From NCBI RefSeq assembly GCF_013456555.2, contig NZ_CP059154.1:558001-622000 (forward strand): a stretch of 64,000 nt of DNA. The letters run 5' to 3'. Under the pieces are notes generated by a model. The model saw nothing but the letters and a program-made list of their open reading frames with translations, did no database searches and was not told the DNA's origin. The translations under genes were made by a program, and so were the position numbers. Origin of the DNA: Natrinema zhouii. Its GTDB lineage: Archaea; Halobacteriota; Halobacteria; Halobacteriales; Natrialbaceae. Positions within the stretch are counted from its first letter, which is position 1. Every line of letters begins with the position of its first letter. Positions 5,825 to 9,712 of this stretch are shown one piece after another.

Positions 5825-7333
5825 TCACTGATCGTGGTCGTGATTGTGGTCGTGACCGTGATCATGGTCGTGACTGTGGCCATGATTGTGGTCGTGGCCG
5901 TGATCGTGGTCACGCGTAACTCCGTCGCCGAGCGTGAACTGCCCGGAGAACGCCCGCTGGACGACCTCCGAGAGCGCGGGATGGATGTGAACCGACTCCT
6001 GTATGTCGCGAACTGTCCCCGAGCCGGCCGTCATCGCGACGACGACCTCCTGAATCAGGTCAGAGGCCTCCGGGCCGATAATGTGACAGCCGAGGATTTG
6101 ACCCTCGAGGTCGATGATCGGCTTGACGAACCCGTCGGCCTTCATCGCGCTCCCGCGAGCCGTCTCCTCATAGCGGTAGGTGCGCTTCGCGTACTCCCGG
6201 TCTGCAGCGCGCAGTTCCTGTTCTGTCAGCCCGACGCCGGCGACCTCCGGCGAAGCGAAGACGGCGAAGGGCATCGCCGAGTAGTCGACCGGCTCGAGTT
6301 CGTCGCCGAACAGGTTGCGCGCGACTGCCTGCGCCTCGTGATTCGCATTGTGTTTCAGCAAGTATTCGCCGACGATGTCGCCAAGCGCCCAGACACCGTC
6401 GGTGGTCGTCCGCAGGTACTCGTCCGTCCGCACGAACCCGGCCTGATCGGTTTCGATACCGGCGGCTTCGACGTTCAGCGTGTCGGTGTTGGGAACCCGA
6501 CCGGCCGCGACGAGCAGTTCGTCGCCGGTGACGGAGATGGGGTCGTCCGGACTCGCGACACTGTCGCCAGCGTCGGCGAACGGACGTGCCTCGACGGTGA
6601 TCGAACCCTCGTCTCCGGAGACGGCGGTCGCTTCGTAGCCGGTGTACACGTCGAACCGGTCGGTGTAGCGCTCGGTGAATGCAGCGGCCACTTCCTCGTC
6701 GGCATCCGGAAGCAGGTTCGGCCGACGGCCGACGATCGACACGTCGCTCCCGAACGTGCCGAAGAATTGCGCCAGTTCGGCGGCGATGTAGCCGCCGCCG
6801 ACGATGACGAGGTGATCCGGCGGGGTTTCCAGCTGGAGTGCTTCGGTGCTGGTGAGGTAGTCGACGGTATCGATGCCGTCGATCGGCGGAATCGCCGGGC
6901 GCGTGCCCGCCGCGACGAGGACGGTGTCCGCGCGAATGCGTTCGCCGTCGGCCGCACCGCCCGTGAGCTCGAGCGTTCGATCGTCGACGAACCGGCCCTC
7001 AGCCTCGTACAGATCGATGGTCTCCGAGGAGCGGAGACCGCGCCGGATCGAGTCCGAGCTCCCGTGGACGTCCTCGTTGACCTCGCGCACGATGTCGGCG
7101 AACGCGACGTCGTTCACCGCGGCGTCGATCCCGAACTCGTCTGCGCGCTCGATCGTTTCCATCACGTGGGCGTGGTACAGCAGCTCCTTCGACGGGATAC
7201 ACCCGCGGTTGAGGCAGGTACCGCCGAGCCGCCCTCTCTCGACGACCGCGACGGACCATCCCTGATTCGCCGCGGCGTTCGCCACGTCGAGGCCGGAGCC
7301 GGAGCCGATGACGAGAAAGTCGTACTCCTCCAT
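5825..7333 (-). CDS. FAD-dependent dithiol-disulfide oxidoreductase with His-rich C-terminal tail
   Basis: This is a class I pyridine nucleotide-disulfide oxidoreductase of 502 residues. It shows the FAD-binding GSGSGLDVA (10-18), the redox-active pair in GGTCLNRGCIPSK (Cys40, Cys45), the NAD(P)-binding GGGYIAAELAQ, the second FAD motif VWALGDI, and the C-terminal dimer-interface base HIHPALSEVV. It would commonly be labelled dihydrolipoyl dehydrogenase or mercuric reductase. No lipoate-complex or mer genes adjoin it, so bis-gamma-glutamylcystine reductase, the haloarchaeal thiol reductase of this family, is a real alternative. The last 28 residues alternate His with Asp, Gly, Asn or Ser (13 His), a likely metal-binding tail. 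A TATA-like gatattcatt sits about 27 bases before the ATG. Confidence 0.88.
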   Translation of the reverse strand: MEEYDFLVIGSGSGLDVANAAANQGWSVAVVERGRLGGTCLNRGCIPSKELLYHAHVMETIERADEFGIDAAVNDVAFADIVREVNEDVHGSSDSIRRGLRSSETIDLYEAEGRFVDDRTLELTGGAADGERIRADTVLVAAGTRPAIPPIDGIDTVDYLTSTEALQLETPPDHLVIVGGGYIAAELAQFFGTFGSDVSIVGRRPNLLPDADEEVAAAFTERYTDRFDVYTGYEATAVSGDEGSITVEARPFADAGDSVASPDDPISVTGDELLVAAGRVPNTDTLNVEAAGIETDQAGFVRTDEYLRTTTDGVWALGDIVGEYLLKHNANHEAQAVARNLFGDELEPVDYSAMPFAVFASPEVAGVGLTEQELRAADREYAKRTYRYEETARGSAMKADGFVKPIIDLEGQILGCHIIGPEASDLIQEVVVAMTAGSGTVRDIQESVHIHPALSEVVQRAFSGQFTLGDGVTRDHDHGHDHNHGHSHDHDHGHDHNHDHDQ

Positions 7334-7457: not shown

Positions 7458-8456
7458 TCACTCCTCGAGCGGCGGCCACTCCCACGCGTCGGCTTCGACC
7501 ACGGCGAGCAAGTGGCGGCGGCGGTCGGTTACCTCCGCGAGGGCCTCGGCGAACTCCTCGTCCGAGACGGTCGGAATGTCGTCCTCCCGGAGCCGATCGA
7601 GATCCGGCGCTCGGGGGACCGCCGGCTCGGGTTCGATAAAGGACTCGTCGAGCGTCTCGAGATAACTCTGGGCGCTCGAGCGGCCGTTTGCGATGATCGC
7701 GGGATCGAGGCTCTGTTCGTCCGGAATCCCGTACCGAAAGAGCATGAGCGCTTCGTCGAGGATGGGGACGGCGACGGCGGAGGCCTGCTCGCTCTCTTCG
7801 CTGTGATAGTAATGGAGGATCGGATAGGATTTGTGCTGTTCGGCGAGCAGGCTCAGCTCCGATGCGAGCGACTCGAGGGCCAGATCGAGGCCCTGAAAAT
7901 CCTCACCGGTCCAGCCGGTGCGGACGAGCGCTTCGCTTCGCTTTCCGAGTCCCGTGACGGTACTGGCGAAGGAGCGTTTATCGGAGACGGCCCCGAGAAC
8001 GGTGAGGATATAGGAGACGCCAAGCGTGACGAACGCCATTCCGGAGGCGGTCGTAAACGCACTGGCGATTTCCCAGACGTCGCCGAGCGGCGTGTAGTCG
8101 CCGTTGCCGTCCGTGAACATCGTGTAGGCGACGTAGTAGAACCGACCCGACCAGTCGGCCACTGCGCCGGTCCGCGTGCTGACGAGGGCGTGCGGGTGGC
8201 TGGCGAAGATGAGCGTCCATCCGAGCCAGATGAGGCCGATCCACATGACGAGCGTGAGGGTGAGAATGAGCGGACCGGCGATACTGAGTACCCTGTCGCG
8301 ATCTCCGCTAACGGTCCGAAGGCCGTGCCAGACACCGGTCGTGAGCCGACCGGAGATTGGACCCGAACCGCCGTCGACCCAGAGGGTCGTCCAGAGAATA
8401 TCCACAATCGCACCGACGAGGATGACGATGCCGGCGACGAGGTAGACGGGGTTCAT
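7458..8456 (-). CDS. ion channel-like membrane protein with a non-canonical pore loop
   Basis: The 332-residue protein has an N-terminal helix (about 4-26), a second helix (61-84), a re-entrant pore-like segment (106-121) and a third helix (about 134-157), then a soluble C-terminal half of about 170 residues. The segment RFYYVAYTMFTDGNGDYTP has the layout of the Ion_trans_2 potassium-channel pore. The usual T-V-G-Y-G-D filter is replaced by T-D-G-N-G-D (115-120). The C-terminal half is acidic with predicted helices and resembles no domain I can name. The gene overlaps the upstream SGNH gene by 4 bases, so the two are translationally coupled. It is probably a haloarchaeal channel relative; ion selectivity is unknown. 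Confidence 0.7.
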   Translation of the reverse strand: MNPVYLVAGIVILVGAIVDILWTTLWVDGGSGPISGRLTTGVWHGLRTVSGDRDRVLSIAGPLILTLTLVMWIGLIWLGWTLIFASHPHALVSTRTGAVADWSGRFYYVAYTMFTDGNGDYTPLGDVWEIASAFTTASGMAFVTLGVSYILTVLGAVSDKRSFASTVTGLGKRSEALVRTGWTGEDFQGLDLALESLASELSLLAEQHKSYPILHYYHSEESEQASAVAVPILDEALMLFRYGIPDEQSLDPAIIANGRSSAQSYLETLDESFIEPEPAVPRAPDLDRLREDDIPTVSDEEFAEALAEVTDRRRHLLAVVEADAWEWPPLEE

Positions 8457-9712
8457 TCCACGACTGCCCGCTGCTCGACGACGCCCGCCAGCACCTGCGC
8501 GATTGCCGCGTTGGTTTCGGGACTGTAGTGGCCGCCTTCTCCGCGTTCGACGTACAGCGACTCGACGTCGCCGTCGTCGGGTGAGAGGTGTGTGGCCATG
8601 TCGATCGTCGTCAGGTCGTCGTATCGCTCGTCGAGTCGATCCAGCAGGTCGCCGTAGATCGGCCCGTGTTCGGACTCGTATTTCGCGTATCGGAGCTGCT
8701 GAACCATTACGAAGGTCGGCTCGAAGTCCTGTTTGTCCGCGTAGTCGACGAACTCCTGGATGAGCGCGTCGAAGAGGTCCTCGTGGGTGTCGAACAGCCG
8801 CTCGTGGTACCGCACGCGGGGCTGCTCCAGCCGCAGCGCCGACTGGGTCTGGGCCAGATCGAAGTCGATCCCCGGAATCGACCGGCTGAGACGGCGCTCG
8901 AGTTCCTTCCCGGCCGTGTAGCCGGCGTAGCGGAGGTGTTCGTTCTTCTCGAGGAAGTCCGCCGTGTACGGCCGCGTCGCGAAGTGGGGCTTGAACCAGT
9001 GGTCGTAATGGAAGTCGTACTCCCGCAGGAAGTCGGCCTTCGACTCGAGGTCGAGCAGCTCCTCCTTTTCGTCGACGGGACTCTCGACGCGCTCGAGGTC
9101 GCCATCCTCGAGGACGTAGCGGGGTTTGACCGCGAGAATGTTGCCGAACTCTTGGTAGTGTTTCCAGACGCTGAGGATGCGCGCGATCGAGGAGGCAGTC
9201 ACGACCATGAAAACGTGATCGGTCGGGTCGTCGGGATACTGGCGTTTGAGCCGCATAAGGGCCTGATCGAGGCCGTAGTTGCCGCCGCCGTAGTTAGCGA
9301 CGTGGGTGTCGAGTTCCTGTGCGAGATAGTTCTGAAAGGTCTCGTCGTTGTCGACCTCTCGGCAGAAACAGTAGGAGTCACCGTAGGTCGAGACCCTGAT
9401 ATCGGCGTCAGGGTCGCGCTCCTTCGCGGGGCAGACCCGACTCGCGTACTCGTCGGTTGAGTACGTAACCGTTGTCCGGACCTCCTCGCCCGGGAGGTGA
9501 TCGCCCGTGTCCTTCTGTTTCTCTCGGTTGGGCTGTGGAACCCACCCGAGTTCGGGATCGAAGCTACTGAACTTCCCCAGTAACTCCCGATCGATCTCGG
9601 GGAACTCCTCGGTGGCCACCGAGGGGATCCGTTCGAGCGCTCGATACGACACGACCTCGAGAATCACCGCACTGACGACGAGAGCGAGCACTATCGCGAC
9701 GAGCGGAAGCAT
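8453..9712 (-). CDS. membrane-anchored SGNH-hydrolase-like protein
   Basis: The protein has 419 residues. An N-terminal hydrophobic helix (MLPLVAIVLALVVSAVILEV) acts as a signal anchor, placing the rest outside the membrane. SGNH-like blocks are visible: STYGDSYCFC (Asp112-Ser113), NYGGGNYGLDQ (Asn145) and GGHYSPETN (His395). The Asp normally found two residues before the catalytic His is not obvious (Gly there), so activity is uncertain. Such proteins often act as esterases or O-acyl hydrolases on surface glycans. A TATA-like cacttatccc lies about 27 bases before the ATG. It starts a two-gene unit with the overlapping channel-like gene. Confidence 0.7.
   Translation of the reverse strand: MLPLVAIVLALVVSAVILEVVSYRALERIPSVATEEFPEIDRELLGKFSSFDPELGWVPQPNREKQKDTGDHLPGEEVRTTVTYSTDEYASRVCPAKERDPDADIRVSTYGDSYCFCREVDNDETFQNYLAQELDTHVANYGGGNYGLDQALMRLKRQYPDDPTDHVFMVVTASSIARILSVWKHYQEFGNILAVKPRYVLEDGDLERVESPVDEKEELLDLESKADFLREYDFHYDHWFKPHFATRPYTADFLEKNEHLRYAGYTAGKELERRLSRSIPGIDFDLAQTQSALRLEQPRVRYHERLFDTHEDLFDALIQEFVDYADKQDFEPTFVMVQQLRYAKYESEHGPIYGDLLDRLDERYDDLTTIDMATHLSPDDGDVESLYVERGEGGHYSPETNAAIAQVLAGVVEQRAVVE

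Follow-up and report, generated by a model that had tools for sequence, protein, structure and literature searches.

The analysed window, a stretch of 64,000 nucleotides from Natrinema zhouii, contains a minus-strand gene for a channel-like protein that belongs to an unnamed family of pore proteins in which the aromatic residue of the selectivity filter is absent. As judged from its sequences the family is real, and the window protein would, on balance, form a tetrameric, weakly selective or non-selective monovalent cation channel of the potassium-channel superfamily, with T-D-G-N-G-D as its filter. The hexamer, to which an earlier note on this DNA had drawn attention, is present at window positions 8097–8114, where the minus strand reads as residues 115–120 of the 332-residue open reading frame (Table 1).

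Table 1. Coordinates in the window of the channel-like gene, its parts and the two adjacent genes.
Feature	Position	Strand	Basis or remark
Channel-like protein, 332 aa	7458..8456 (stop codon included)	minus	ORF with ATG start
Filter T-D-G-N-G-D, residues 115–120	8097..8114	minus	codons ACG GAC GGC AAC GGC GAC
Asp116, variable second filter position	8109..8111	minus	family alignment
Asn118 at filter position 4, where K+ channels have Tyr/Phe	8103..8105	minus	Asn 163/196, aromatic 0/196
Tyr108, covarying with polar 116	8133..8135	minus	covariation count
Ser132, covarying with polar 116	8061..8063	minus	covariation count
Extra N-terminal helix, residues 3–25, presumed transmembrane	8382..8450	minus	predicted model
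Signature D19..WTTLWVDGG, residues 19–30	8367..8402	minus	D19 194/196, T23 194/196, W22 and W26 187/196
Helix, residues 33–50, probably interfacial	8307..8360	minus	model and superposition
Outer helix, residues 60–85	8202..8279	minus	model
Pore helix, residues 102–115	8112..8153	minus	AlphaFold2 model, DSSP
Long inner helix, residues 126–170	7947..8081	minus	model
All-helical C-terminal domain, residues 171–332, without recognised family	7461..7946	minus	model, Pfam and structure searches
Upstream GDS-motif gene (GDSY and N-terminal hydrophobic stretch)	8453..9712	minus	stop overlaps channel start as ATGA
Downstream dihydrolipoyl-dehydrogenase-type flavoprotein, long His/Asp-rich tail	5825..7333	minus	ORF and Pfam

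Four copies of the family occur in the Natrinema zhouii genome, with the filters TDGNGD, TLGIGD, TLGIGD and TLGNGD. The window copy is on contig 1; contig 4 has a second copy (48% identity) and contig 5 two more (46% and 47%). Two other Ion_trans_2 genes, found by a six-frame genome search, both have TVGYGD. The fourth genomic copy (L004; contig 5, 44300–45280, 47% identity) contains two in-frame stops, adjoins a copper-type ATPase and is probably a decaying gene.

Profile similarity and the predicted succession of outer helix, pore helix, filter and inner helix place the window protein in the P-loop cation channel superfamily (Ion_trans_2 type). Pfam Ion_trans_2 (PF07885) matched residues 76–154 with an E-value of 4.9e-4 and a score of 20.4 bits, which for the whole protein is below the gathering score of 22.5 bits (the score was the same without the first Met); in the six-frame genome search the same segment exceeded the cut-off with 25.0 bits. 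An Ion_trans_2 match at E ≤ 1 was obtained for 53 of 56 aligned family representatives, the window protein included (best E-value 8.3e-9; representatives at <88% identity, L087, L107 and L113 excluded), and a profile of these 56 sequences matched Kv1.2-type chains, that is, a voltage-gated K+ channel, in the PDB (E 2e-4), with the TxGNGD of the family paired with TVGYGD. The Pfam match, the PDB profile match and the conservation in the family described below rule out a chance hexamer.

An AlphaFold2 monomer of the window protein (mean pLDDT 89.6, pTM 0.82) showed the pore elements in the order listed in Table 1. In a structural comparison with VIA-align 2, residues 31–154 superposed on the KirBac3.1-type chain 2wli_B (Z 9.8, rmsd 2.0 Å, 92 residues) and residues 63–154 on the NaK D66N mutant 2q69_A (Z 8.3, 2.2 Å, 82 residues), Z values under about 13 being ones that may reflect a common arrangement among helical proteins. 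All 50 matches listed by VIA-align were channels by title, and several KirBac superpositions started at model residues 26–31, ahead of the outer helix. Foldseek with the whole model gave no significant match (best E 0.25) and also listed non-channel helical proteins; the fold is claimed from the VIA-align comparison and the sequence profile, not from Foldseek E-values. The reading of the earlier note, a pore loop between helices, is thus supported, as a re-entrant segment between two membrane helices, by the sequence profile, the monomer model and the channel superpositions.

The C-terminal domain was all-helical in both predicted models. For this domain Foldseek found nothing at E ≤ 0.001 (the best hit had 1.1), VIA-align reached a best Z of 6.6 and a comparison with PDB sequences gave none at E ≤ 10, an absence of matches that does not prove a new fold. 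A separate search against viral structures also found nothing at E ≤ 0.001 (the best was an 82-residue protein, E 0.099). The domain search of the window protein at E ≤ 1 returned Ion_trans_2 alone and no TrkA_N/RCK domain of the kind found on the chain of RCK-gated channels, and no NCBIfam model matched three family members (the window protein and the L231 and L214 copies).

The search for related loci kept 80 loci of 83, 54 of them haloarchaeal by title and the others mostly from Planococcus, Alkalibacterium and Marinilactibacillus, plus single records from other bacteria; this set is biased to the motif, because MFTDGNGD was one of six search words. Matches were present in 135 of the 391 genomes of the class. 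Among 133 class copies (L001–L033 and 100 regions from among the matches listed, with some rows skipped), the filters were TDGNGD (37), TNGNGD (35), TMGNGD (29), TLGNGD (11), TLGIGD (10), TSGNGD (5), TAGNGD (2) and, once each, TEGNGD, TLGTGD, TLGNGE and TLGNGG. GNG filters also occur in bacteria, for example in Planococcus and Pontibacter. An Indioceanicola query against Alphaproteobacteria (E ≤ 1e-20) matched 1 of 385 genomes, the query's own, so that family members are rare in this group. Literature searches for the filter strings of the family gave no match.

Conservation was counted over 196 distinct sequences from 233 collected, bacterial plasmid relatives included; ORFs had to reach 280 aa, or 250 aa in annotated records, and L087 and L107, in which the gene is in two pieces, were left out, as was L113, in which the ORF ends after 47 aa. 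Gly117 was found in all 196 sequences, Gly119 in 194 and Thr115 in 193, and position 120 was Asp in 181 and Glu in 12. Position 118 was Asn in 163, Ile in 17, Val in 7, Thr in 4, Gly in 2 and Ser, Ala or Leu in one each, and in no case Tyr or Phe. As a control, 30 Ion_trans_2 loci were read of 33 matches in 13 genomes of the order; three belonged to this family, and the other 27 gave 24 readable filters, 23 with Tyr or Phe and one with SLGDGD. Since an aromatic residue is found in 0/196 family sequences and in 23/24 control filters, its absence is a trait of the family and not an oddity of the window gene. The SLGDGD locus (L275) is an Ion_trans_2 gene apparently outside the family. Across homologues, then, the G-N-G-D part of the T-D-G-N-G-D hexamer singled out in the earlier note is conserved, but Asp116 is variable, with Asp in 40 of 196 sequences.

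Several residues outside the filter were retained to a similar extent, namely Pro123 (193/196), the pore-helix aromatics at positions 107 (194/196), 108 (193/196) and 111 (191/196), and, in the C-terminal domain, Tyr211 (192/196), Pro212 (196/196), His215 (191/196), Arg313 (190/196) and Trp327 (194/196). The conservation of the N-terminal D19..WTTLWVDGG motif is about equal to that of the filter. Degenerate filters (TLGSVD, TLGGGT and IVGASD) occurred once each among the 196 sequences. A few individual records deserve mention: the relative on an Enterococcus faecium plasmid (L215, CP142861.1) is divided between two hypothetical proteins and flanked by IS1216- and IS30-family transposase genes; L087 and L107, on the chromosome and a plasmid of Natronorubrum bangense, both have a topoisomerase VI B-like match beside their divided channel match; and L226 (CP031304.1), on a record labelled as a plasmid, may belong to a chromosomal piece, because that record carries proteasome and topoisomerase VI genes.

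Residue 116 was Leu in 58 of the 196 sequences, Asn in 43, Asp in 40, Met in 35, Ser in 11, Val in 4, Ala in 3 and Glu in 2. On a FastTree tree rooted with two alphaproteobacterial sequences, several deep nodes of which are poorly supported, a polar residue 116 was by parsimony gained twice (in clades of 92 and 6) and reverted once to Ala, and an acidic one was gained five times and lost once; rather than a family-wide feature, Asp116 is lineage-specific and recurrent. Every one of the 96 sequences in which residue 116 is polar had both Tyr108 and Ser132; of the 100 in which it is non-polar, 25 had Tyr108 and 6 had Ser132. Position 108, aligned via Thr115, presumably corresponds to Trp68 in the pore helix of KcsA. 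The variability of residue 116, together with its coupling to positions 108 and 132, suggests that Asp116 packs behind the filter instead of lining it, probably forming a polar cluster there with these two residues.

These observations bear on the suggestion of the earlier note of a filter lined by the Asp116 and Asn118 side chains and tuned for extreme salt, which we consider extremely improbable. Although Asp, Glu, Asn and Ser at position 116 were confined to haloarchaeal sequences among those collected, and the five gains of an acidic residue on the tree would suit such tuning, an acidic residue 116 was found in only 38 of the 133 class copies, the rest having Asn, Met, Leu, Ser or Ala. Haloarchaea also use TMGNGD, TLGNGD, TLGIGD, TNGNGD and TSGNGD, bacteria have GNG filters as well, and an acidic residue 116 is dispensable for high-salt life, as the haloarchaeal copies with Met, Leu, Asn or Ser at this position show. 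Residue 116 covaries with residues outside the filter and, according to extracts of PMC8689586, backbone carbonyls together with the Thr hydroxyl make up the ion sites of K+ channels, so that canonical filters do not use this side chain as an ion ligand.

Relatives of the window protein are annotated in public records as 'Two pore domain potassium channel family protein', 'potassium channel family protein' or 'ion channel'. Despite these automatic names, the window protein is neither a K2P channel nor an ordinary K+ channel: the 332 residues contain one matched stretch with one pore helix and filter, and not the two pore loops per chain of K2P channels, and Asn118 departs from the K+-selective signature T-x-G-[YF]-G. 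Channels of the Kir/KirBac type are marked by an immunoglobulin-like, beta-rich cytoplasmic domain. KirBac3.1 was the best structural match for the pore module, but the window protein has an all-helical cytoplasmic part in its models and a filter without Tyr.

We propose that the window gene supplies one subunit of a cation channel; with one pore loop per chain, the assembly is presumed to be a homotetramer. TDGNGD would be its re-entrant filter, with mainly backbone carbonyls and the Thr115 hydroxyl as ligands and with Asp116 probably tucked away behind it, and the long inner helix and the helical C-terminal domain would probably gate the pore. The Tyr or Phe of the K+ filter is generally regarded as very important for selectivity. 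With Asn118 in its place, the outer ion sites would probably be lost or loosened and discrimination between K+ and Na+ would probably be weak or absent, by analogy with NaK (TVGDGN) and NaKTs (PMGNGP); selectivity itself is not readable from sequence. Extracts of PMC8689586 and PMC9822992 describe NaK as a non-selective channel with two ion sites that becomes K+-selective when its filter is swapped to TVGYGD or TVGFGD. In NaK, as in its D66N mutant (PDB 2q69), the fourth filter position is also non-aromatic and the model superposes; the TDGNGD of the window protein differs from TVGDGN in having Asn at position 4 and Asp as the final residue, and the protein has extra domains. A literature search on NaK with D66N gave no match. 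NaKTs of Tsukamurella paurometabola, with the filter LPMGNGPLSP, is likewise presented as non-selective in extracts of PMC5052707. It belongs to the same 2TM pore superfamily, shares the aromatic-free G-N-G core and has M-G-N-G in common with the TMGNGD variants of the family, but the analogy is partial because, in those extracts, prolines take the place of Thr115 and Asp120, which the window protein retains. NaKTs is described there as a simple 2-TM subunit, whereas the window protein has an extra helix and a C-terminal domain. The proline-rich NaKTs filter also has Ca2+ bound in it.

A truly K+-selective channel, which would keep four ion sites despite Asn118 and hold its filter by other contacts behind it in place of the Tyr, is an unlikely alternative to the weakly selective channel. 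It would fit the retention of Thr, both Gly and Asp in most of the 196 sequences and the persistence of aromatics at positions 107, 108 and 111; against it, position 118 accepts eight different residues and never Tyr or Phe, Natrinema zhouii already has two canonical TVGYGD channels, and in NaK it was the change to TVGYGD or TVGFGD that brought K+ selectivity (extracts of PMC8689586 and PMC9822992). That the family has kept a channel fold as a non-conducting sensor or assembly scaffold seems very improbable, even though the N-terminal motif and the C-terminal residues Tyr211, Pro212, His215, Arg313 and Trp327 are conserved about as well as the filter and degenerate filters turn up occasionally, for the strong retention of Thr, both Gly, Asp and Pro123 across several phyla fits a working filter.

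The sister branch of the family (44–53% identity to the window protein), which includes the three further Natrinema zhouii copies, was frequently found next to copper genes. Among its 56 copies (50 genomes), 29 were located ≤5 kb from a CopA-type ATPase or DUF326 gene, compared to 0.53 expected with positions spread over the whole genome, and in a same-contig control, restricted to the 43 of 56 copies on contigs of known size (three sizes via plasmid records with matching coordinates), 24 were observed and 2.33 expected, with 17 of 28 genera involved; all these statistics treat copies as independent and ignore shared ancestry. CopA was ≤1 kb away for 17 of the 56 copies, and neither marker was within 5 kb for 27. 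The count took in ATPase matches of ≥66% identity and omitted some CopA pieces; merging the pieces left it at 29. Annotated haloarchaeal plasmid records of the sister branch (L230–L238 and L248–L250; the annotated H18 and the unannotated H11, H12, H14 and H16 were left out) had a copper-annotated gene ≤8 kb away in 12 of 12 cases, coding for a heavy-metal/copper P-type ATPase, a plastocyanin-type protein, a multicopper oxidase or a four-helix copper protein. In L231, L232 and L237 the channel gene begins 31–51 bases past the ATPase gene, and the L232 ATPase passes the NCBIfam copper-translocating cut-off (614.8 vs 397 bits) as well as that of the cadmium-type model (396.8 vs 313.5). On bacterial plasmids, copper genes adjoin the relative in 5 of 11 annotated records, in which the flanks were mostly 1–3 kb; these come from Bacteroidota, Cyanobacteria and Alphaproteobacteria (Pontibacter actiniarum, P. 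akesuensis, Stanieria, Gloeocapsa and Indioceanicola), and Planococcus lenghuensis, with a DUF305 gene alone, was not counted. The other three Natrinema zhouii copies have SHOCT, DUF326-type and copper-ATPase matches ≤1.5 kb away. As a separate observation, the Pontibacter actiniarum plasmid (L247) contains one copper cluster with two 'potassium channel family' genes, both matching family queries. The aromatic-free filter and the copper neighbourhood of the sister branch together suggest a distinct kind of putative cation channel.

Copper linkage hardly extended to the window's own branch (≥55% identity): of its 28 copies in genomes also carrying a sister-branch copy, 2 were ≤5 kb from a copper ATPase or DUF326 gene and 0 were ≤1 kb away; among annotated records of this branch, 0 of 4 were near copper genes. 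With flanks of at most 6 kb on either side, 10 of the 47 loci L034–L080 gave a P-type ATPase match (E<1e-8), the nearest 1.2 kb away, and the sole SHOCT match was at L075. A plastocyanin-type match lies at a distance of about 0.9 kb in L083 (55% identity) and a four-helix copper-protein match immediately upstream in L084 (51% identity), and the sought copper genes were found at 0 of 22 loci of Planococcus, Alkalibacterium and Marinilactibacillus. In the window itself, the upstream gene gave no Pfam match at E ≤ 1 and is, from its motif, taken to be SGNH/GDSL-hydrolase-like; 21 of the 80 loci have a counterpart of it at a distance of up to about 6 kb. The downstream flavoprotein has a longer tail than the orthologues whose ends were read, and a match to it occurred at 17 of the 80 loci, although in four cases a distant one only (24–28% identity). 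One flavoprotein of a Halopiger copper island is 73% identical to it, which gives no more than a hint of a copper link for the window gene.

This neighbourhood evidence bears on a role of the family, or of its plasmid branch, in copper handling, by conducting Cu(I), by being gated by copper or by providing a K+/Na+ counter-current to the P-type ATPase, with the window copy as a chromosomal relative of the same or a relaxed role. We judge this distinctly improbable: the sister-branch linkage in both controls, the plasmid records, the neighbours of the other three Natrinema zhouii copies and the Halopiger-like flavoprotein argue for it, but the near absence of linkage in the window branch, the sister-branch copies with neither marker, the 22 bacterial loci and expected values that ignore shared ancestry weigh against it, as does a filter without Cys or His, in which Met occurs at position 116 alone and only in some members. 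A more specific proposal, that the TxG[N/I/V]GD channel family is a copper-island module (Cu(I)-gated, Cu(I)-conducting or carrying the ATPase counter-current) and the window gene a chromosomal offshoot with a repacked Asp116–Tyr108–Ser132 cluster, is speculative and quite unlikely. Copper handling would be compatible with the weakly selective cation channel that we favour.

Automatic names aside, the sequences mark the family as a variant of the potassium-channel-type pore in which the filter aromatic is absent. A natural, widespread family in which the aromatic is missing while the rest of the signature is retained, and in which eight different residues occupy position 118, provides a ready-made test of the role of the aromatic. 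Among the matches listed, and in the extracts, the literature on copper-linked channels contained no report of a K+-channel-type pore; should the copper-ATPase link of the sister branch prove functional, copper resistance would gain a pore of this type.
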